NCBI GenBank assembly: GCA_017409265.1
Contig: JAFQSY010000025.1
Span: 1-56,948, forward strand
Length of the DNA: 56,948 bases
Reading direction: 5' to 3'
Origin: Clostridia bacterium
GTDB taxonomy: Bacteria > Bacillota > Clostridia > Oscillospirales > Acutalibacteraceae
Positions 12,775 through 47,536 of the stretch are shown in pieces. The notes beneath the pieces are model-generated. The model made no database searches, was not told the DNA's origin, and saw nothing but the letters and a program-made list of their open reading frames with translations. The position numbers and the translations under genes were made by a program. Position 1 is the stretch's first letter. The number at the start of each line of letters is the position of its first letter.

Positions 12775-13410
12775 ATGAGTTTTATAATAAGTACATTTTT
12801 GCGTTTAATAATATTAATCGTTTGTGCTATTATTGAAATTTTTACTATTGTAAATATCATAAGAGACTTCTCTTGCAAAAAGTTAATATTTCTTTTTATA
12901 CCATTTTTGATAGTCTTCACAATGTTCTTTCAGGGTAATTACAAGCAACCAAAGCTCGATGTTGAAAAAGCAATTTGTATAGCTCAAAATACAATCTCGT
13001 CAAAAGAAAATAAGATTCCCGCTGGCATTTATGACAATGGACAATACAATGTTATTTTAAGTAGTTATGAAAGTGACGATGCATACAAAGAATTGGACGA
13101 CATTTCTAACGAATACAATAAATTTTTCAAACTTTTTGCAAAAAAAGGGTTTTGCGATAACATCAAATATCTTATAACCCCAATGAAATCAGATCGTCAA
13201 AGTGAAGGCTTCTATATGCATCAAGGTTATCGAGGGAGTGTTTTTATTGCTGTTAATAAAGAATTGATTATTGAAATTGATTATTTAATATACAGAAAAG
13301 CTGACGAAATATTAGGTGCAATTTATTCACCTCCTGTGCTTAATACAATTGATTTTACACAAATAATTACACCTGAAAATTTAGTACAAAAAGAAGATAC
13401 AACATTTTAA
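12775..13410 (+). CDS. Hypothetical membrane-anchored protein, AT-rich
   Basis: Unrecognised protein of 211 residues. Two hydrophobic segments (about 1-25 and 32-50) anchor it, followed by a soluble domain of about 155 residues facing outward. The start at 12775 is supported by GGAGGG at 12762-12767. The soluble part has alternating beta-like stretches (GQYNVILSSY, YRGSVFIAVNKELIIEIDY) but no motif I know. Codon use is much richer in A/T than the next gene, so it was probably acquired together with the preceding small ORF. Confidence 0.6.
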   Translation: MSFIISTFLRLIILIVCAIIEIFTIVNIIRDFSCKKLIFLFIPFLIVFTMFFQGNYKQPKLDVEKAICIAQNTISSKENKIPAGIYDNGQYNVILSSYESDDAYKELDDISNEYNKFFKLFAKKGFCDNIKYLITPMKSDRQSEGFYMHQGYRGSVFIAVNKELIIEIDYLIYRKADEILGAIYSPPVLNTIDFTQIITPENLVQKEDTTF

Positions 13411-13423
13411 ACGGAGAATGTTT

Positions 13424-14179
13424 ATGAAAGAATATGTTCAGCGACTCAAAGATAATTGCCCCAAAAGAAGATTTGCCTTTTGGTGGATTTTCAGACTGCT
13501 TATGGTTTATGCGTTTGTGGCAGGTTTCTTCAAGAAACCGTTTGATATAACCGATCCGCTTCAGGTAGGTGCAAATCTTGTTGCAATGTTTGCGTGGGAA
13601 ATACTGATGCTCTGTTCACCGAAGAGGGTTTTCCGCTATATGCCGTCGGTGATTCAGACTTTTTCGATACTGATAGTTTTTGCGGCTTCCTTCTGCGGTA
13701 AGTTTCTTAATTTCTATTATGATATCCGCCTGTGGGACGCGGCGCTTCATTTTCTCGGCGGCGCAGGATGCGTTTTCCTTGGGTATGAATTTGCCTGTGC
13801 ATTGATAAAGAGAGATAAAAAAGACGCTTCTCTTTCAATGGTTCTTCTTGCGGCGGTAGGCTTTTCGTTTATCGGTGCAACCGCATGGGAGCTGTTTGAA
13901 TTCACTTTTGATCAGGTGGCAGGCATGATGAGCGGCTATCCGGGCGATTCTCAGCACTGGTCGCTGCTGCTCGCGCTTGATACGGCAAAGGCAGTAACTC
14001 TTTTTGATCCGATTGTCCCCGAACGCTGGCCTATTATGGATATAATGGGCGATATTGTTCTTAACACCGTCGGAGCACTTGTTGCTTACATATTCCTGAA
14101 GCTTGTTCCCTACCGCCATAAGGGAAGGTTCAAATTTGATTTTGATTTTGCACAGGAAAGGGAAACTGTAAACGTATAA
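13424..14179 (+). CDS. YjdF-like multi-pass membrane protein
   Basis: A 251-residue integral membrane protein with about six hydrophobic segments. Conserved-looking features are a DIRLWDAALHFLGG motif near residue 102 and WELFEFTFD near 152, matching the YjdF/DUF2238-like family pattern of Asp and His in the membrane. Function is unknown. The start at 13424 follows CGGAG; an ATG at 13418 lacks spacing. G+C returns to the window average here, in contrast to the two genes before it. A perfect terminator follows directly. Confidence 0.7.
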   Translation: MKEYVQRLKDNCPKRRFAFWWIFRLLMVYAFVAGFFKKPFDITDPLQVGANLVAMFAWEILMLCSPKRVFRYMPSVIQTFSILIVFAASFCGKFLNFYYDIRLWDAALHFLGGAGCVFLGYEFACALIKRDKKDASLSMVLLAAVGFSFIGATAWELFEFTFDQVAGMMSGYPGDSQHWSLLLALDTAKAVTLFDPIVPERWPIMDIMGDIVLNTVGALVAYIFLKLVPYRHKGRFKFDFDFAQERETVNV

Positions 14180-14222
14180 AAAAACCCCGATTTTCACTAA
14201 CGAAAATCGGGGTTTTCTTTTG
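14178..14222. terminator. Bidirectional rho-independent terminator
   Basis: AACCCCGATTTT (14183-14194) pairs with AAAATCGGGGTT (14203-14214), with A-run before and T-run after, between converging genes. Confidence 0.9.
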
Positions 14223-14223
14223 C

Positions 14224-15942
14224 TCAGAAGTTGAAATCAAAAATAATAATTGCTTTGAAGAGATAGGTGAGGATGTACTTCATATACTTGACGATGTCGG
14301 AGAAGATTTTTGCAGTTTTATCGCTTATGTTGCTGATGTTTGAGGAAACGGAAACCGTTCCGTAGCCGTCGAGAGTTCCGTTGTTATCGTCAACGTTATC
14401 GTTGTCAAAAGCGAATTCATAAAGAATAGGGGATGCGATAGCAAGCAGGAAGTATTCTGCGGAGGTTGCGCCGCCGAAAACCTTGGTGCCGAGCTTGGTG
14501 AGTTCATCGGAGATTGATTCGATGCCGTAATCCTCGAGGAAAGCGTTTGCAGCTTTGAGGAAAAGCTCGTCGCTGATGCCTGCAAGGTCGGTTCTGAGGA
14601 TGAGAGCAACTGTTCTCAGGAGAATTGCAACTTCGGTGCTTTCAAGGTCCTTGTTCTCTCCGCCCTCGTAGTGGGCGGCAACAAGCTCTGTTGCAAGATC
14701 CCAGGGATCTTCGTAGTTGCTGTCAGGGATATCAATATTGTATGCCTTAGCAAGCTCCTGAACGCCGCCTTCGCCGTAGAGAGGCATTTCAAGAATATCG
14801 GTAAGCCCCGTTACAGCGGTGTAAACAAGATCATAGTAGAAAGCGTCCTCGGCAATTCCCATTTTCTCCATTGAAAGGGAGAGGGAAAGGCGGTATTTGA
14901 TGCCTTCTTTAAGGAAGCCCTTTGCGTATGCGTTAAGGCCGCTGTTCATAAGGTCGATGTGCTCCTGAGTGAAGCCGGAAACCGTCTGAGTGAGAGCATC
15001 GGTGTCAATGCTTTCGATTGTTTTGGATTCATATTTGATTTCATCCTCGGTGAGGGTGAAGAATCTGTAAGCGAGAGGATACATTGTGAGTGAGGTTGTT
15101 GCAAAGTCGGTGATTGTGTTGCCGAGAAGGCTTGTGAAGGTGGTAACGTCACTGCAATGCTCGTGGCCTGAGAAAACAAGCTTGATTCCCCAGTCGGCAA
15201 AGAGCTCAGCGGTGGTGTTGTGGAATTTTACGATAAAGTTTTTGCTGAAAATGCTCTGAAGGGGCATATGGTTATTGAGGTTGTGATGCATCATGAGGAT
15301 GGGATATCTGCCGTCAGCGTCAGCGGCTTTAACCTGCTGATGTACCCAATCGATTTTTTCAGCGGTCATACCGTCCTCGGTGGAGGCGGTTTCATCGCAG
15401 CTGTCAAGAGCGATAAGGCGGTATTTTTCACCGAGGTTTGCGGTGTATGAGCAGTCGTTCTCGTTGATTACGAGAGCCTGATCGTAGCCGAAATCATGAT
15501 AAATGCTCTTGAACTGAGCAAAGGTGGTTTCTGAGCCTTCAGCGGCATCGTGGTTACCGTTTATAACGTAAACCTGTTTGCCGTAGGTTGCTTCAAAAGC
15601 GGCAAGCTTTGCGGCCATATCGTAGTGCTCCTGGGGGATAGCACGGCCGTTGTCAACAAGGTCGCCTGAAAGAAGAACGAATTCAATTTCATCGTTTTCG
15701 CCGCACTGCTTAAGGAATTCGTCAATAATAAAACCGCTTTCATCCTCCATAGCGCAGCGCCTGTTGGCGTACCAGTAAATGGGGTCGTCTATTTCGCCTT
15801 CAAGCACTTCTCTGGGGATGTTGTAGTGAAGGTCTGAGGCAACGGCGAAACTGAGGTCGGGCTCTTCGTTTGCGAAAGCGCCAATAACGCAGGAGCAAAC
15901 AAGAAGGCACAGCGACAAAAGAATACAAACGGCTTTTTTCAT
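14224..15942 (-). CDS. Secreted calcineurin-like metallophosphoesterase
   Basis: A 572-residue exported phosphoesterase. The signal peptide ends at about residue 24 (VIGAFA-NEE). The metal-binding motifs appear in order: DLHYN near 37, GDLVDNG near 93, GNHD near 128, MMHH near 216 and GHEH near 258, so the di-metal site is complete. The C-terminal 290 residues are helical and unfamiliar, and the last 20 residues are hydrophobic and may hold the protein to the membrane. It stands alone on its strand. Likely substrates are extracellular phosphoesters. Confidence 0.88.
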   Translation of the reverse strand: MKKAVCILLSLCLLVCSCVIGAFANEEPDLSFAVASDLHYNIPREVLEGEIDDPIYWYANRRCAMEDESGFIIDEFLKQCGENDEIEFVLLSGDLVDNGRAIPQEHYDMAAKLAAFEATYGKQVYVINGNHDAAEGSETTFAQFKSIYHDFGYDQALVINENDCSYTANLGEKYRLIALDSCDETASTEDGMTAEKIDWVHQQVKAADADGRYPILMMHHNLNNHMPLQSIFSKNFIVKFHNTTAELFADWGIKLVFSGHEHCSDVTTFTSLLGNTITDFATTSLTMYPLAYRFFTLTEDEIKYESKTIESIDTDALTQTVSGFTQEHIDLMNSGLNAYAKGFLKEGIKYRLSLSLSMEKMGIAEDAFYYDLVYTAVTGLTDILEMPLYGEGGVQELAKAYNIDIPDSNYEDPWDLATELVAAHYEGGENKDLESTEVAILLRTVALILRTDLAGISDELFLKAANAFLEDYGIESISDELTKLGTKVFGGATSAEYFLLAIASPILYEFAFDNDNVDDNNGTLDGYGTVSVSSNISNISDKTAKIFSDIVKYMKYILTYLFKAIIIFDFNF

Positions 15943-16076
15943 AAAAAATCCTCTTTCCTATGCTTATAAAGCATAAATAAATAATATAAGAATTTTATCA
16001 TAAGCCACTATATTTGTCAAGAAAGCAGAAAAGGGAGGAGAAAAACAAAAAAATAAAAGAAATTTTGCAAAAGGGC

Positions 16077-16141: not shown

Positions 16142-16233
16142 GGAGAGTTGTCCGAGCTGGTCGAAGGAGCACGATTGGAAATCGTGTAACCGCCTAAAAC
16201 GGTTCGAGGGTTCGAATCCCTTGCTCTCCGCCA
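16142..16233 (+). tRNA. tRNA-Ser (anticodon GGA), CCA encoded
   Basis: A 92-base class II tRNA. The acceptor stem is GGAGAGT (16142-16148) against GCTCTCC (16223-16229), followed by discriminator G and genomic CCA (16231-16233). The anticodon stem is CACGA/TCGTG with loop TTGGAAA, anticodon GGA at 16177-16179. A long variable arm is present, and the T arm is GAGGGTTCGAATCCC. It reads UCC/UCU. Its 3' tail is repeated twice downstream and its T arm recurs in inverted orientation, described separately. Confidence 0.96.
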
Positions 16234-42369: not shown

Positions 42370-42515
42370 CTCAATTCCTCCGATCGTGTTAATAATAGAA
42401 TTATAATATGAAATTGTAATTATTGCAATGATTTTTAGCATAAATAACAGTTTTTTACGTCAAAATATCACATAACGATTATTTATAAAATCCAAGATTT
42501 ATTAAATAATAACGA

Positions 42516-42544
42516 TTGACAACGCATTTTCAATTTGTTATAAT
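42516..42544 (+). promoter_or_regulatory. Consensus promoter of the aspS-gatC/gatA/gatB operon
   Basis: Perfect TTGACA (42516-42521), 17-base spacer, perfect TATAAT (42539-42544). Transcription should begin near 42551. Confidence 0.92.
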
Positions 42545-42550
42545 GCGATT

Positions 42551-42770
42551 TGAAGACCCGCCTTTTTCGGAAAGTCTGCAAGAGATAGTGCGTCACAGGC
42601 TGAAAGCGCACTTCAGATGAGTAGTAAGCGCGGCAACACTTCAACGGTTCCCCAAAACAGAATAAAAAGAGCGGATATCATTTTCTGATATCAATACGGG
42701 TGGCACCGCGGGTATAATAACTATAACTCGTCCCGGGAATTTCTTTTTGGAATTCCCGGGGCTTTTTTGT
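42551..42770 (+). promoter_or_regulatory. T-box riboswitch leader
   Basis: The diagnostic T-box sequence GGGTGGCACCGCGGG is at 42698-42712, followed by terminator stem CCCGGGAATT/AATTCCCGGG (42732-42760) and TTTTTT. Upstream, TTGAAG near 42550 can pair with CTTCAA near 42640, enclosing AGAGA (42581-42585) and GTGCG/CGCAC, which fits a compact Stem I. A GAU at 42616-42618 is a candidate Asp specifier, but I could not fold the specifier loop with certainty; Asn (AAC) is not excluded. Uncharged tRNA would favour read-through into aspS. Confidence 0.9.
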
Positions 42771-42824: not shown

Positions 42825-44933
42825 ATGTACAGAACTCATCGTTGCAACGAAATAAGAGAGAGCCATATCGGTCAGAGAGTTGAGCTCGCAGGCTGGGTTG
42901 ACGTTATCCGTGACCACGGCGGTGTTCTTTTCGTTGATTTGCGTGACGAAACAGGTGTAACACAGGTTGTTGTTCATGACGAAAATCTTCTTAAAGGCAT
43001 CGCTAAAGAAACTGTTATTTCGGTTTCGGGTGTTGTTACGAAGCGTGACGAAAGCACCGTTAATCCCAAGATAGAAACAGGTCTTGTTGAGCTTGTTGCG
43101 GATAAGCTCGATGTTCTCGGCGTATGCAGCCGTGATCTTCCTTTCGAAATCGGCTCAACCGATACTAATGAAAACATCCGTCTTAAGCACAGATTTCTCG
43201 ATTTGAGAAATCCTGCTCTTCATAATAATATTTTGCTCCGTTCAAAAGTTATCGGCCACATGAGAAAGCTCATGGAGGAGAGGGGATTCCTTGATATTCA
43301 GACCCCCATCCTTACCGCATCTTCACCCGAAGGCGCAAGAGATTTCCTTGTTCCCAGCCGTAAGCATCCGGGCAAGTTCTATGCTCTGCCGCAGGCTCCG
43401 CAGCAGTTCAAGCAGCTGCTCATGGTTTCGGGATTTGATAAGTATTATCAGATTGCACCCTGCTTCAGAGATGAGGATGCCCGTGCAGACCGTTCGCCCG
43501 GTGAATTTTATCAGCTTGATTTTGAGATGGCATTCTCAACCCAGGACGAAGTTCTTGAGGTTTGTGAAAGCGTTGTAAGCGATATTTTCAAAACCTTCTC
43601 GGATAAGAAGGTTACCGCATCGCCCTTCAGACGCATTCCTTATGCAGAGGCAATGGCAAAATACGGCTCGGATAAGCCCGACCTTCGCAACCCCCTTATC
43701 ATCTGCGACCTTACCGATATGTTCAAGAGAGTTCAGTTCAAGCCTTTCATGAACAAGTTTGTAAGAGCTATCGTTGCTCCCTGCAAGAACGAAAGATGGT
43801 TCTTTGACAAGTCACTTGCATTCGCAACAAAGCAGGCAAAGATGGCAGGTCTTGCCCACATCACTCTTCTCGATGCCGCAAACTACGGCTTCAAGGATGA
43901 CCCCATCAGCAAAGTCATGACCGAGGAAGAAAAGAGAGAAATTGTTGAGCTTACGGGTGTTAAGGAAGGCGAAACAATCTTCTTTATCTGCGACAATATT
44001 TCCGATGTTGCCGATAAGAACGCAGGCGTTATCCGCACATGGCTCGGCAATGAGCTTGAGCTTATCAAAAACGATGCGTTTGAGTTCTGCTTTGTTGTTG
44101 ACTTCCCCATGTATGAGCGTGACGAAACAACAGATAAGATTATCTTTACTCATAACCCGTTCTCAATGCCTCAGGGCGGACTTGAGGCACTCGAAACAAA
44201 AGACCCCACCGAGGTTCTTGCATATCAGTACGACCTTGTATGTAACGGCATTGAGCTGGCTTCCGGTGCGGTCAGAAACCACAGCCCCGAAATCATGAGA
44301 AAAGCCTTTGAAATCGCAGGTTACAGTGAGGATGAGGTTGAAAGACGCTTCAGCGCACTTTATAACGCATTCCAGTTCGGCGCTCCTCCCCATGCAGGTA
44401 TGGCACCCGGCGTAGACCGAATTATCATGCTTCTTGCGGATACCGAAACCATCAGAGATGTTATTGCATTCCCGCTTGACGGAACGGCGCAGGATCAGAT
44501 GCTTGGTGCACCCGGCGAGGTTACGGAGCTTCAGCTCTTTGAAGCAAACGTCAGCATCAGAGGCAAGGGCGGCGCAGTTGAGATTTCAGGCTCTGAAAGC
44601 GACAGCTCCGCATTTACCGCTACCGTTAATTCCGCAAAGGGCGGCGCCATGACCAAGGAAGGCTGGCTCAAGGAGCTTGAGAGCGTAAACGAACTCAGCT
44701 TTGACGCAGACGAGAAGAAAAAGATGCAGAAGATTCTCGATATGATGGGCAAAAACGAGGCTGAGCTCGGAAAAACCGATACAGCCGATGTTGAAGCAAT
44801 GGTTTATGTTATGCCCATGACAAACGTTTTGAGAAATGACGGCAGAAATCAGCCCTTTGCCCGTAAAGACCTGCTTGAAGGTGCTCCCCAGAGCACCGAG
44901 GACAGCTGGCAGGTTCCCAGACTCGTGAAGTGA
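42825..44933 (+). CDS. aspS: Aspartyl-tRNA synthetase fused to GatC
   Basis: A 702-residue protein, about 100 longer than bacterial AspRS. Residues 1-110 are the anticodon-binding OB fold, 130-590 the class II catalytic core with the bacterial GAD insertion. Motif 2 is FRDEDARADRSPGEF and motif 3 is GMAPGVDRIIMLL. After the normal AspRS end (GAPGEVTELQLFEANV) and a Gly/Ser-rich linker, residues about 609-702 match GatC: TKEGWLKELESVNELSFDADEKKKM, VEAMVYVMPMTNVLRND and the terminal DSWQVPRLVK. Met609 has AAAGGG 8 bases before it, so free GatC could also be made by internal initiation. The fusion ties Asp charging of tRNA-Asn to the amidotransferase. Regulated by the T-box. Confidence 0.92.
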   Translation: MYRTHRCNEIRESHIGQRVELAGWVDVIRDHGGVLFVDLRDETGVTQVVVHDENLLKGIAKETVISVSGVVTKRDESTVNPKIETGLVELVADKLDVLGVCSRDLPFEIGSTDTNENIRLKHRFLDLRNPALHNNILLRSKVIGHMRKLMEERGFLDIQTPILTASSPEGARDFLVPSRKHPGKFYALPQAPQQFKQLLMVSGFDKYYQIAPCFRDEDARADRSPGEFYQLDFEMAFSTQDEVLEVCESVVSDIFKTFSDKKVTASPFRRIPYAEAMAKYGSDKPDLRNPLIICDLTDMFKRVQFKPFMNKFVRAIVAPCKNERWFFDKSLAFATKQAKMAGLAHITLLDAANYGFKDDPISKVMTEEEKREIVELTGVKEGETIFFICDNISDVADKNAGVIRTWLGNELELIKNDAFEFCFVVDFPMYERDETTDKIIFTHNPFSMPQGGLEALETKDPTEVLAYQYDLVCNGIELASGAVRNHSPEIMRKAFEIAGYSEDEVERRFSALYNAFQFGAPPHAGMAPGVDRIIMLLADTETIRDVIAFPLDGTAQDQMLGAPGEVTELQLFEANVSIRGKGGAVEISGSESDSSAFTATVNSAKGGAMTKEGWLKELESVNELSFDADEKKKMQKILDMMGKNEAELGKTDTADVEAMVYVMPMTNVLRNDGRNQPFARKDLLEGAPQSTEDSWQVPRLVK

Positions 44934-44944
44934 GGTGCAGATAA

Positions 44945-46123
44945 ATGATTTATATTAACGAGATAAATGCGGCAGGTAAAATTGCCGTAGACGATACAAT
45001 CCTTGTAAAAGATGTTCCTGCAACAGCAGGCTCAAAAATGCTTGAGAATTTCAAGCCCCTTTTCAGCGCAGAAGCTGTTGAAAGACTTGAAAAGGCAGGC
45101 TATGCAGTCGCAGGTAAAACAAATGTCGGTGAATTTGGTCTTGACCTTATGGGCGAAACTTCATATTTTGCTCCCGAAACCGAAAACGGCAGCCTTGTCG
45201 GTGCGGCAGCATCGCTTGTTGCATCGGGCAAGGTTAAGGCGGCGCTTAATGTTGACCTTAACGGTGCTCCCAGACGTGCGGCAGCAGTTTCGTGCGTTGA
45301 TTTTATCAAGCCCACTTACGGTACCGTTTCACGCTACGGTATCATTGCATGCGCATGCTCGGGCGAGCAGATAGGCGTTACCGCCAAAAATGCCGACGAT
45401 GCAAAAGAGATTCTTTCTGTAATTGCAGGTCATGACAGCAAGGACGGCACAAGCCTTCCTGCCGAAAAATATGAATATTCAACAGAAGAAAATGTTGCAG
45501 AAATGAAAATCTGCATCGCAAAAGAGCTTTATGATGCTGCAAGCGCAGAGGTTAAGGCAAAGATTGATGGCTTTGCAGAAAGCCTTAAGAAGCTCGGCGC
45601 AAAGGTTGAAGAAGTTTCCCTCGGTATGGCTGAACAGGCTAAAACCGCATGGCAGATTCTCATGTCTGCCGAAACCACCAATAACCTTTCAAGATTTGAC
45701 GGCGTTAAGTACGGGTACAGAACCCCCGAATATAAAAACATTGACGAGCTTTATGTAAAGAGCCGTTCCGAATCAATGGGCTTCCTTGCAAAGGCAACGA
45801 TTATTTACGGCTCCGATGTTCTTGCAAAGGCAAAATACGAAAAGTGCTATGATAAATCGCTCCGTATCCGCCGTATTGTATGCGATAAGGCAAGAGAAAT
45901 CCTTGCAGACTATGACGCAATTCTTGCTCCCGCATGCTCACAGGTAAGCTACAAGCCTTATGATACCGCCGATGCTTTCGAAAAGGTCTATGAAGAAAGC
46001 CTTTTCACCGCAATTCCCTCAATCACGGGTATGCCTGCAATGGTAACAAAGGGTGTTCAGCTTATTGCGGATTCATATAAAGAGAGTGTGCTTCTGAGCA
46101 TTGCAAAAAGTGTGGAGGTGTAA
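44945..46123 (+). CDS. gatA: GatA-like subunit, shortened and lacking the catalytic nucleophile
   Basis: A 392-residue amidase-fold protein, against about 485 for normal GatA. The first 55-60 residues of the family are missing: the Lys of the triad (ILVKD, K22) lies almost at the start. The next region aligns well (KMLENF...AVERLEKAGYAVAGKTNVGEF), as do KPTYGTVSRYG and NNLSRFDGVKYGYRT. The signature GGSSGGS is reduced to NGSLVGA (82-88 region), and the segment GSDTGGSIRQPAA reads NVDLNGAPRRAAA, so the nucleophilic Ser is Ala108. The C-terminal glutamine-site loop (GLPIGLQ region) is also shortened. By known GatA chemistry it should not hydrolyse glutamine. GAGGTG precedes the start, and no frameshift or stop suggests decay. 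Confidence 0.85.
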   Translation: MIYINEINAAGKIAVDDTILVKDVPATAGSKMLENFKPLFSAEAVERLEKAGYAVAGKTNVGEFGLDLMGETSYFAPETENGSLVGAAASLVASGKVKAALNVDLNGAPRRAAAVSCVDFIKPTYGTVSRYGIIACACSGEQIGVTAKNADDAKEILSVIAGHDSKDGTSLPAEKYEYSTEENVAEMKICIAKELYDAASAEVKAKIDGFAESLKKLGAKVEEVSLGMAEQAKTAWQILMSAETTNNLSRFDGVKYGYRTPEYKNIDELYVKSRSESMGFLAKATIIYGSDVLAKAKYEKCYDKSLRIRRIVCDKAREILADYDAILAPACSQVSYKPYDTADAFEKVYEESLFTAIPSITGMPAMVTKGVQLIADSYKESVLLSIAKSVEV

Positions 46124-46126
46124 ATA

Positions 46127-47536
46127 ATGAAATACGAACTTGTTATAGGTTTGGAAACTCACGTTGAACTTTCCACCGATTCAAAGCTTTTCTGTTCCTG
46201 CGGCGGTCACTCAAGCCCCAAGGAGCCCAATGACTGCGTATGCCCTGCTTGCAGCGGTATGCCAGGCATGCTTCCCGTAACCAACAAGCACGCAATCGAG
46301 CTTGCAGTTAAGGCAGGCTTTATGCTCAACTGCAAAATAAATCAGTACACAACCTTCGATAAGAAGAGCTATTATTATCCCGATCTTCCCTGTGCTTATC
46401 AGATAACACAGTGGTTCCATCCCATCTGTGTTGACGGCAGTGTGCAGATAGGCGAAAGAACAATCGGAATCAAGCAGATTCACGTTGAAGAGGACGCAGG
46501 TAAGCTTGTTCATGACGAAGCAACCAACACTTCATTTGTTGATTTCAACCGTACCAGCGTTCCCCTTATCGAAATCGTCAGCAGACCCGATTTCCGTTCG
46601 TCGGATGAGGTTATTGCATATCTCAAAAAGCTTAAGTCAAGCCTTCAGTTTGCAGGCATTTCCGAATGCGAAGAGGGCGCAATGAGATGCGACGTTAATA
46701 TTTCCGTACGTCCTGAAGGCTCAAATGAGCTCGGCGTACGTTCGGAAATCAAAAACATGAGTTCACTTTCAGAAATCAAGGATGCAATTGAATTTGAAAA
46801 GGTGCGCCATGTTGATGCCATCGAGCGACACACGGAGATGCTTGTTCAGGAAACACGCCGTTGGGACGATGTTAAGCGCCGTACTTTCCCCATGCGTAAC
46901 AAAGAAACCGCAGCGGATTACCGCTATTTCCCCGACCCCAACCTCATGCCCATCGTTATTGACGACGAGTGGCTTGCAGAAATCAAGGCAAGCATGCCTG
47001 CAACTGCAGAGGAAAAGAGCGGATATTATGAGGAAATGGGAATTGCCGCAAAAGAAGCAGCGGTTCTTTCGTCCGACAGAAAGCTTTCCGATATGTTTGA
47101 TGATGTTGTTGCTATGGGCAGAAGCCCCAAGACCGTTGCAAGTTGGATTCTTACAGAGTGTATGGGTCAGATGAAGCGCCTTGAGCTTACATCTCTTGAT
47201 ATTGAGCCTGCAAAGCTTGCAAGAATCATTGAGCTTGTTGAGGACGGAGAAATCACCCGAGCAGCAGGCAAGAAGGTTCTTTCGGCAGTTTTTGAAAATA
47301 ATGTTGATGTTGACAAATTCTGCGAAGAAAACAATCTCAATGCAAAGATTGACAACAGCTTCATTCTTGAAACAGTCCGCCGTGTTATCGGCGAAAATGA
47401 CAAGGCTGTTGCCGACTATAAGAGCGGCAAAGTCAAGGCTATGCAGTCAATCTTCGGCTGTATAATGAAGGAGCTTAAGGGTAACGGCGACCCCGCAGTT
47501 ATCAGAAGCCTTCTTGAAAAAGAGCTTAACGCTTAA
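46127..47536 (+). CDS. gatB: Aspartyl/glutamyl-tRNA amidotransferase subunit B
   Basis: A 469-residue GatB of normal length. The N-terminal kinase cradle has YELVIGLETHVEL, Zn-type Cys residues (FCSC...CVCPACSGMPG), IKQIHVEEDAGK and FNRTSVPLIEIVS. The helical and YqeY-like tail domains (about 290-469) end the protein, with KVKAMQSIFGCIMKELKG. GatB activates Asp- or Glu-tRNA with ATP and adds ammonia. All expected motifs look intact, in contrast to the adjacent GatA. The start lies 3 bases after the gatA stop with a GGAGGTG site. Confidence 0.95.
   Translation: MKYELVIGLETHVELSTDSKLFCSCGGHSSPKEPNDCVCPACSGMPGMLPVTNKHAIELAVKAGFMLNCKINQYTTFDKKSYYYPDLPCAYQITQWFHPICVDGSVQIGERTIGIKQIHVEEDAGKLVHDEATNTSFVDFNRTSVPLIEIVSRPDFRSSDEVIAYLKKLKSSLQFAGISECEEGAMRCDVNISVRPEGSNELGVRSEIKNMSSLSEIKDAIEFEKVRHVDAIERHTEMLVQETRRWDDVKRRTFPMRNKETAADYRYFPDPNLMPIVIDDEWLAEIKASMPATAEEKSGYYEEMGIAAKEAAVLSSDRKLSDMFDDVVAMGRSPKTVASWILTECMGQMKRLELTSLDIEPAKLARIIELVEDGEITRAAGKKVLSAVFENNVDVDKFCEENNLNAKIDNSFILETVRRVIGENDKAVADYKSGKVKAMQSIFGCIMKELKGNGDPAVIRSLLEKELNA

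Follow-up and report, generated by a model that had tools for sequence, protein, structure and literature searches.

A T-box-led AspRS-GatCAB operon of gut Clostridia with a GatA lacking the glutaminase triad

Gene content, leader and tRNA context of the operon

The window, that is, the whole 56,948-nucleotide stretch of DNA analyzed here, belongs to a draft Clostridia bacterium genome (G000; 2.5 Mb, 91 contigs, ~80% complete) whose nearest relatives in named records are mostly uncultured Clostridia, many of ruminant gut origin. It contains a three-gene operon preceded by a putative T-box leader, and the middle gene, denoted gatA', encodes a GatA fold without the glutaminase triad. The features of the locus are as follows.

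42516..42544, + strand: promoter-like TTGACA-17-TATAAT ahead of the leader, read from the sequence
42550..42768, + strand: T-box leader with stem I, antiterminator with UGGC, and terminator hairpin followed by a T run (RF00230, consensus fold)
42635..42637, + strand: proposed specifier codon AAC (Asn), from the sequence and from AAC-R-CTY in related leaders
42699..42710, + strand: T-box core GGTGGCACCGCG; a G discriminator is the predicted partner of the C in UGGC
42825..44933, + strand: AspRS-GatC fusion with GatC at the C-terminus, AspRS of the non-discriminating type (RDHG), from profile matches
44945..46123, + strand: gatA', GatA fold without the glutaminase triad, ATG start, 392 aa
46127..47536, + strand: gatB, full length, ATP-dependent amidating subunit, from profile match and column comparison

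The sequence-only reading had placed gatA' as a long clean frame between AspRS-GatC and an intact GatB, and both points hold: 44945-46123 is open over 392 aa, and the GatB at 46127-47536 scores 499.7 bits with TIGR00133 (cut-off 314.8). The GatC part of the fusion matches Pfam GatC at 30 bits (cut-off 23) and TIGR00135 at 37.8 bits, under that model's cut-off of 47.1. Elsewhere in gatA' operons GatC is either fused to AspRS or encoded by a small separate ORF, and gatB adjoins gatA' in 48 of 48 loci. An alanyl-tRNA editing-like protein with tRNA_SAD and DHHA1 domains is encoded after gatB at two loci (L084 7675-8832, L085 7619-8770). The sole tRNA gene found in the window is a tRNA-Ser gene with anticodon GGA at 16142-16233.

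The RF00230 match at 42485-42738 (E 2.1e-8) scores 43.1 bits, under the gathering score of 93, and a scan of the window at the Rfam gathering score returned no T-box match; a PCA3 match from the scan that gave the RF00230 match was taken as chance. In a consensus fold of 12 leaders from the genus, both partners have changed in 11 of the 39 pairs. The T-box core is present in 35 of 42 operon leaders (UGGC, n = 33; UGGU, n = 2) and was not seen in the other 7. All 35 leaders with the core carry exactly one AAC-R-CTY within 190 bases before it, at the expected specifier position. The 5 tRNA-Asn genes seen all have a G discriminator, which suits the C of UGGC. By core and AAC specifier, these 35 leaders are Asn-type T-boxes.

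His in the RDHG motif is the mark of a non-discriminating AspRS. All 42 operon AspRS that could be parsed carry RDHG, a count that covers the 48 loci apart from six in which no such AspRS was parsed (L080, L083, L092, L098, L112 and L115, the last with a 614-aa ORF upstream of gatA'). The other AspRS of the window's genome has RDLG, and AspRS loci outside the operon have RDLG in 26 of 30 (RDKG, 1; unparsed, 3). By motif, then, the operon AspRS is of the non-discriminating type. Archaeal-type AspRS genes, named aspartate--tRNA(Asn) ligase, were observed in two gatA' genomes (L317 61-1434, L318 24-1397).

The tRNA evidence for an amidation pathway is mixed and counts against it in part. GatCAB recognizes U1-A72 in tRNA(Asn), according to the portion of PMC4206432 consulted; of the five tRNA-Asn genes seen, three have U1-A72 (one in the window's genome, and those of L102 and L111) and two have G1-C72, namely the second gene of the window's genome and the gene of G017, a partly read genome without AsnRS. 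The two genes of the window's genome lie on contig C20 (L275 59-134, G1-C72) and contig C41 (L296 179-254, U1-A72), the latter a 5.2-kb contig whose composition is somewhat atypical (ranked 41 of 47) and which may be foreign. At L111, the U1-A72 tRNA-Asn gene (2564-2638) directly precedes the operon's T-box leader.

Lost catalytic residues and conservation of GatA'

Against TIGR00132, gatA' scores 267.8 bits (E 1.7e-79), far under the model cut-off of 481.1. Its residue 12 falls at position 62 of the model, and residue 1 corresponds to residue ~40 of a solved GatA in the fold comparison, so about 40-50 N-terminal residues are absent; the truncation proposed from sequence alone therefore stands, at less than the ~57 residues first given. 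Alignment likewise confirms the replacement of the nucleophilic Ser by Ala108 and of GGSSGGS by NGSLVGA. Beyond that earlier reading, the triad Lys has become Asp16 (VKDN to VDDT) and the cis-Ser Leu84, as placed by sequence and alignment:

44990..44992, + strand: Asp16 codon, place of the triad Lys
45194..45196, + strand: Leu84 codon, place of the cis-Ser
45266..45268, + strand: Ala108 codon, place of the nucleophilic Ser

All three catalytic residues of GatA are thus replaced, whereas comparison with the solved GatA finds the GatA fold complete. R334 and D418 are named as glutamine contacts of yeast GatA in the part of PMC4027206 consulted, and the conserved canonical residues aligned with these contacts, an Arg pair (284/285) and an Asp (352), are also lost. 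A first AlphaFold model, built from 14 rows, was poor (pLDDT 58.9) and was excluded from the fold evidence.

All three triad residues are missing from 14 of 14 intact orthologues in the genus, which makes the loss more than chance, and the triad is gone in every readable GatA' row. Over 80 distinct rows, the nucleophile position holds Ala in 53, Ser in 17, Thr in 8, Tyr in 1 and Phe in 1; the Lys position holds Asp in 78, with one Glu and one gap. From the rows gathered for alignment, 12 were removed as duplicates by their last 150 residues. Because the Ser position varies and Lys is nearly always Asp, it is the loss of Lys that marks the family, and the change of Ser, taken in the sequence-only reading as the defining lesion, does not. 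A merely displaced Ser is also ruled out as the main point, as 17 of the 80 relatives have Ser there and none has Lys or cis-Ser. Twelve columns, Asp16 among them, are fixed differently in GatA' than in catalytic GatA, and GatA' keeps 47 of 124 canonical-invariant columns as against 83 of 111 for GatB (L098, L123 and L124 excluded from the column counts).

Using a purpose-written Nei-Gojobori script and excluding G009 and G011, we obtained a median dN/dS of 0.132 for GatA' over 78 pairs in the genus, compared with 0.066 for GatB (91 pairs) and 0.087 for AspRS-GatC (66 pairs). A quick tree was built under an unmixed model, with the triad columns and L098 excluded; its terminal branches are long. 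In it, GatA' and catalytic GatA sequences fall on opposite sides of a single branch (SH-aLRT 100). The earlier suggestion of selection for a structural, non-hydrolytic GatA is therefore well supported by low dN/dS, a single clade and a complete fold. With its frame open and its dN/dS low, gatA' shows neither the broken frame nor the relaxed selection of a pseudogene. Of the 15 copies in the genus, that of G030 is divided between two frames; the 14 intact orthologues with the same change, together with purifying selection, rule out a sequencing error or a recent pseudogene as the origin of gatA'.

Distribution of gatA' against other routes to asparagine

Among 45 genomes of the genus, 15 carry gatA' with gatB, 25 carry AsnA, none carries both and 5 carry neither. 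G011, one of the AsnA genomes, encodes a catalytic GatAB, and an amidase on a 5.3-kb contig of G036 is of another type. In the family (398 genomes), gatA' is present in 46 and AsnA in 159, again without overlap: AsnA occurs in 0 of 46 gatA' genomes versus 159 of 352 others (Fisher P 1.3e-11, kinship ignored). A better argument for exclusion is that 16 of the 26 gatA' genera also hold AsnA species, so that one seems to have been swapped for the other on many occasions. The 46 gatA' genomes were picked by a score of at least 396 bits, the next score being 304; triads were read in 30 of them (L157-L186), and the other 16 were assigned by score and length. Family-wide scoring, GatA and AsnB included, used the best few candidates per genome.

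AsnRS is found in 14 of 46 gatA' genomes versus 149 of 159 AsnA genomes. With all class II synthetase candidates scored, it was not found in the other 32 gatA' genomes, an absence made less than certain, like the others here, by the incompleteness of draft genomes. An AsnRS overlooked as archaeal-type was ruled out: extra 457-aa class II enzymes in G331 and G375 score 484 and 485 bits as aspartate--tRNA(Asn) ligase (cut-off 353) and fall under the AsnRS cut-offs. Of the 32 genomes, 24 have no catalytic GatA among the matches listed, 11 of these being at least 90% complete; 23 of the 24 have one match each, and G165 (77% complete) has two, which leaves its membership unsure. With no other route to Asn-tRNA visible in the genomes that lack both AsnRS and a listed catalytic GatA, the complex should amidate Asp-tRNA(Asn) without a GatA glutaminase.

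GlnRS is found in 45 of 46 gatA' genomes, over the cut-off in 44 and missing from G107 (71% complete), so Gln-tRNA is covered and the operon is unlikely to be needed for it. TIGR01536 (AsnB) at E 1e-40 matches proteins in 308 of 398 genomes, 29 of the 46 gatA' genomes among them, and since these AsnB-like proteins are of several kinds we build no argument on AsnB. Twelve gatA' genomes have neither AsnRS nor a TIGR01536 match nor, among the matches listed, a catalytic GatA. The window's genome contains two AsnRS and an AsnB, so the operon is an extra route there; gatA' is the only amidase-family gene found in that genome at its ~80% completeness. The second AsnRS lies beside the AsnB on contig C43 (L075 1697-6732), with a neighbor that by eye resembles an ammonium transporter. 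On contig C6 of G219, a gatA' operon coexists with another operon, in which AspRS stands with a canonical-scoring GatA (13136-16043 and 76802-79938).

Source of nitrogen and relation to known systems

We consider it probable that the operon encodes a T-box-controlled, tRNA-dependent asparagine pathway run on ammonia. Judging from the leader sequence, uncharged tRNA(Asn) would bind the AAC T-box and switch the operon on. The non-discriminating AspRS, tied to GatC, would then produce Asp-tRNA(Asn), and GatB with ATP would activate the Asp side chain and amidate it to give Asn-tRNA(Asn). GatA' would no longer split glutamine and may be kept as a body joining GatC and GatB, perhaps with an ammonia path, the nitrogen donor presumably being free ammonia. 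Asn-tRNA as the product, already proposed from the sequence, is well supported by the AAC T-box, the His-type AspRS, the absence of AsnA and the frequent absence of AsnRS. Since GatA' has no glutaminase site, the known mechanism does not allow glutamine to serve as the direct donor of nitrogen. The portion of PMC4027206 consulted describes a GatFAB with a damaged glutaminase side that amidates better with NH4Cl in vitro than the full enzyme. Free ammonia is thus the simplest donor, given this result and the replacement of the ammonia-using AsnA by gatA', and the system would be a tRNA-based substitute for AsnA. Use of free ammonia by GatB, one of the sources the earlier reading had named, is our best inference; its other proposed source, another glutaminase, is less likely.

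In that alternative, which we regard as unlikely, the Asn-tRNA pathway is the same and another amidase supplies the ammonia. The candidate is an asparaginase-family (PF00710) protein. Its gene lies near 14 of 48 gatA' loci, directly after gatB in 6; none of the 31 catalytic GatA loci has one nearby. The protein could work like archaeal GatD, or split free Asn into Asp and NH3, both pathway substrates, in cells without AsnRS. Two of the 14 neighbors are at L094 7649-8704 and L120 7642-8697, and the match at L089 is weak (50 bits). The window's genome encodes a more distant homologue at another place (L270, 126 bits), but no PF00710 gene stands beside the window's operon and none was seen near 34 of the 48 loci. 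The Thr motifs are present, but across 13 aligned sequences no conserved Lys was seen at the place where asparaginases carry a functional one.

It is less probable still that the complex is vestigial or re-purposed, for example in assisting or regulating AspRS, and makes no Asn-tRNA. This reading is consistent with the AsnRS and AsnB of the window's genome and with the split copy in 1 of 15 genus members; the low dN/dS, the single clade across 26 genera, the AAC T-box and those genomes for which no alternative route to Asn-tRNA is listed argue against it. The least probable case is a GatA' that still hydrolyses glutamine through other residues. The complete fold would allow this, and the 12 differently fixed columns, including Asp16, could form a new active site, but Lys, cis-Ser and the residues matching the glutamine contacts are all lost, and any of five residues (Ala, Ser, Thr, Tyr, Phe) is found where the nucleophile should be.

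Compared with known systems, the ammonia-run pathway belongs, by gene content, to the AspRS plus GatCAB kind, as a variant whose GatA lacks the catalytic residues. A T-box-controlled AspRS2-GatCAB operon of Clostridium acetobutylicum was reportedly described by Saad in 2012. Like that operon (PMC4206432 in the portion consulted), the gatA' operon places a T-box leader ahead of an additional AspRS that comes with a GatCAB of its own. The likeness is one of leader and gene content; gatA' itself is dead. The systems of non-discriminating AspRS and GatCAB in Bdellovibrio, S. aureus and D. radiodurans, as covered in the same portion of PMC4206432, are alike in His-type AspRS, GatB and GatC, in probable amidation of Asp-tRNA(Asn) and in use where an Asn synthetase is missing; the gatA' operon differs in its GatA without a glutaminase site. 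AsnA, an ammonia-dependent asparagine synthetase, is alike in the probable use of ammonia for Asn and is mutually exclusive with gatA' in the 398 genomes, but has an unrelated fold and acts on free Asp rather than on tRNA.

Archaeal GatDE pairs a GatB relative with an asparaginase-family amidase, a combination suggested near the 14 of 48 gatA' loci; unlike GatDE, the gatA' operon keeps GatA' and GatC, and in most cases has no asparaginase-like gene directly beside it. Animal carbamoyl phosphate synthetase I has a glutaminase part that is dead but retained, and draws on free ammonia, as the gatA' complex would, but is an unrelated enzyme in which the dead part belongs to a single chain instead of being a subunit. 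Our search of titles and abstract beginnings in the open-access PMC literature found no prior report of a glutaminase-dead GatA.

GatCAB is a standard example of glutaminase and transferase linked through an ammonia tunnel. A glutaminase-dead form that occurs naturally, is conserved and is seemingly the sole route to Asn-tRNA in some genomes would show that this coupling is dispensable, and gatA' makes testable what GatA does besides producing ammonia. We tentatively entertain, as possible though somewhat doubtful, that GatA has been rebuilt as the ammonium-taking subunit of a dedicated ammonia-dependent tRNA amidotransferase, repeatedly exchanged with AsnA among gut Clostridia, in which the nearly invariant Lys-to-Asp change and the 11 other fixed replacements form an ammonium-binding tunnel entrance. 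If so, the tRNA pathway would have an ammonia and a glutamine form, as AsnA and AsnB are for free asparagine. The evidence suggests that the complex of these gut bacteria runs on surrounding ammonia and stands in for the ammonia-using AsnA of their relatives. To judge from the exchange of gatA' with AsnA, the asparagine route retained by a gut bacterium may depend in part on the nitrogen source.
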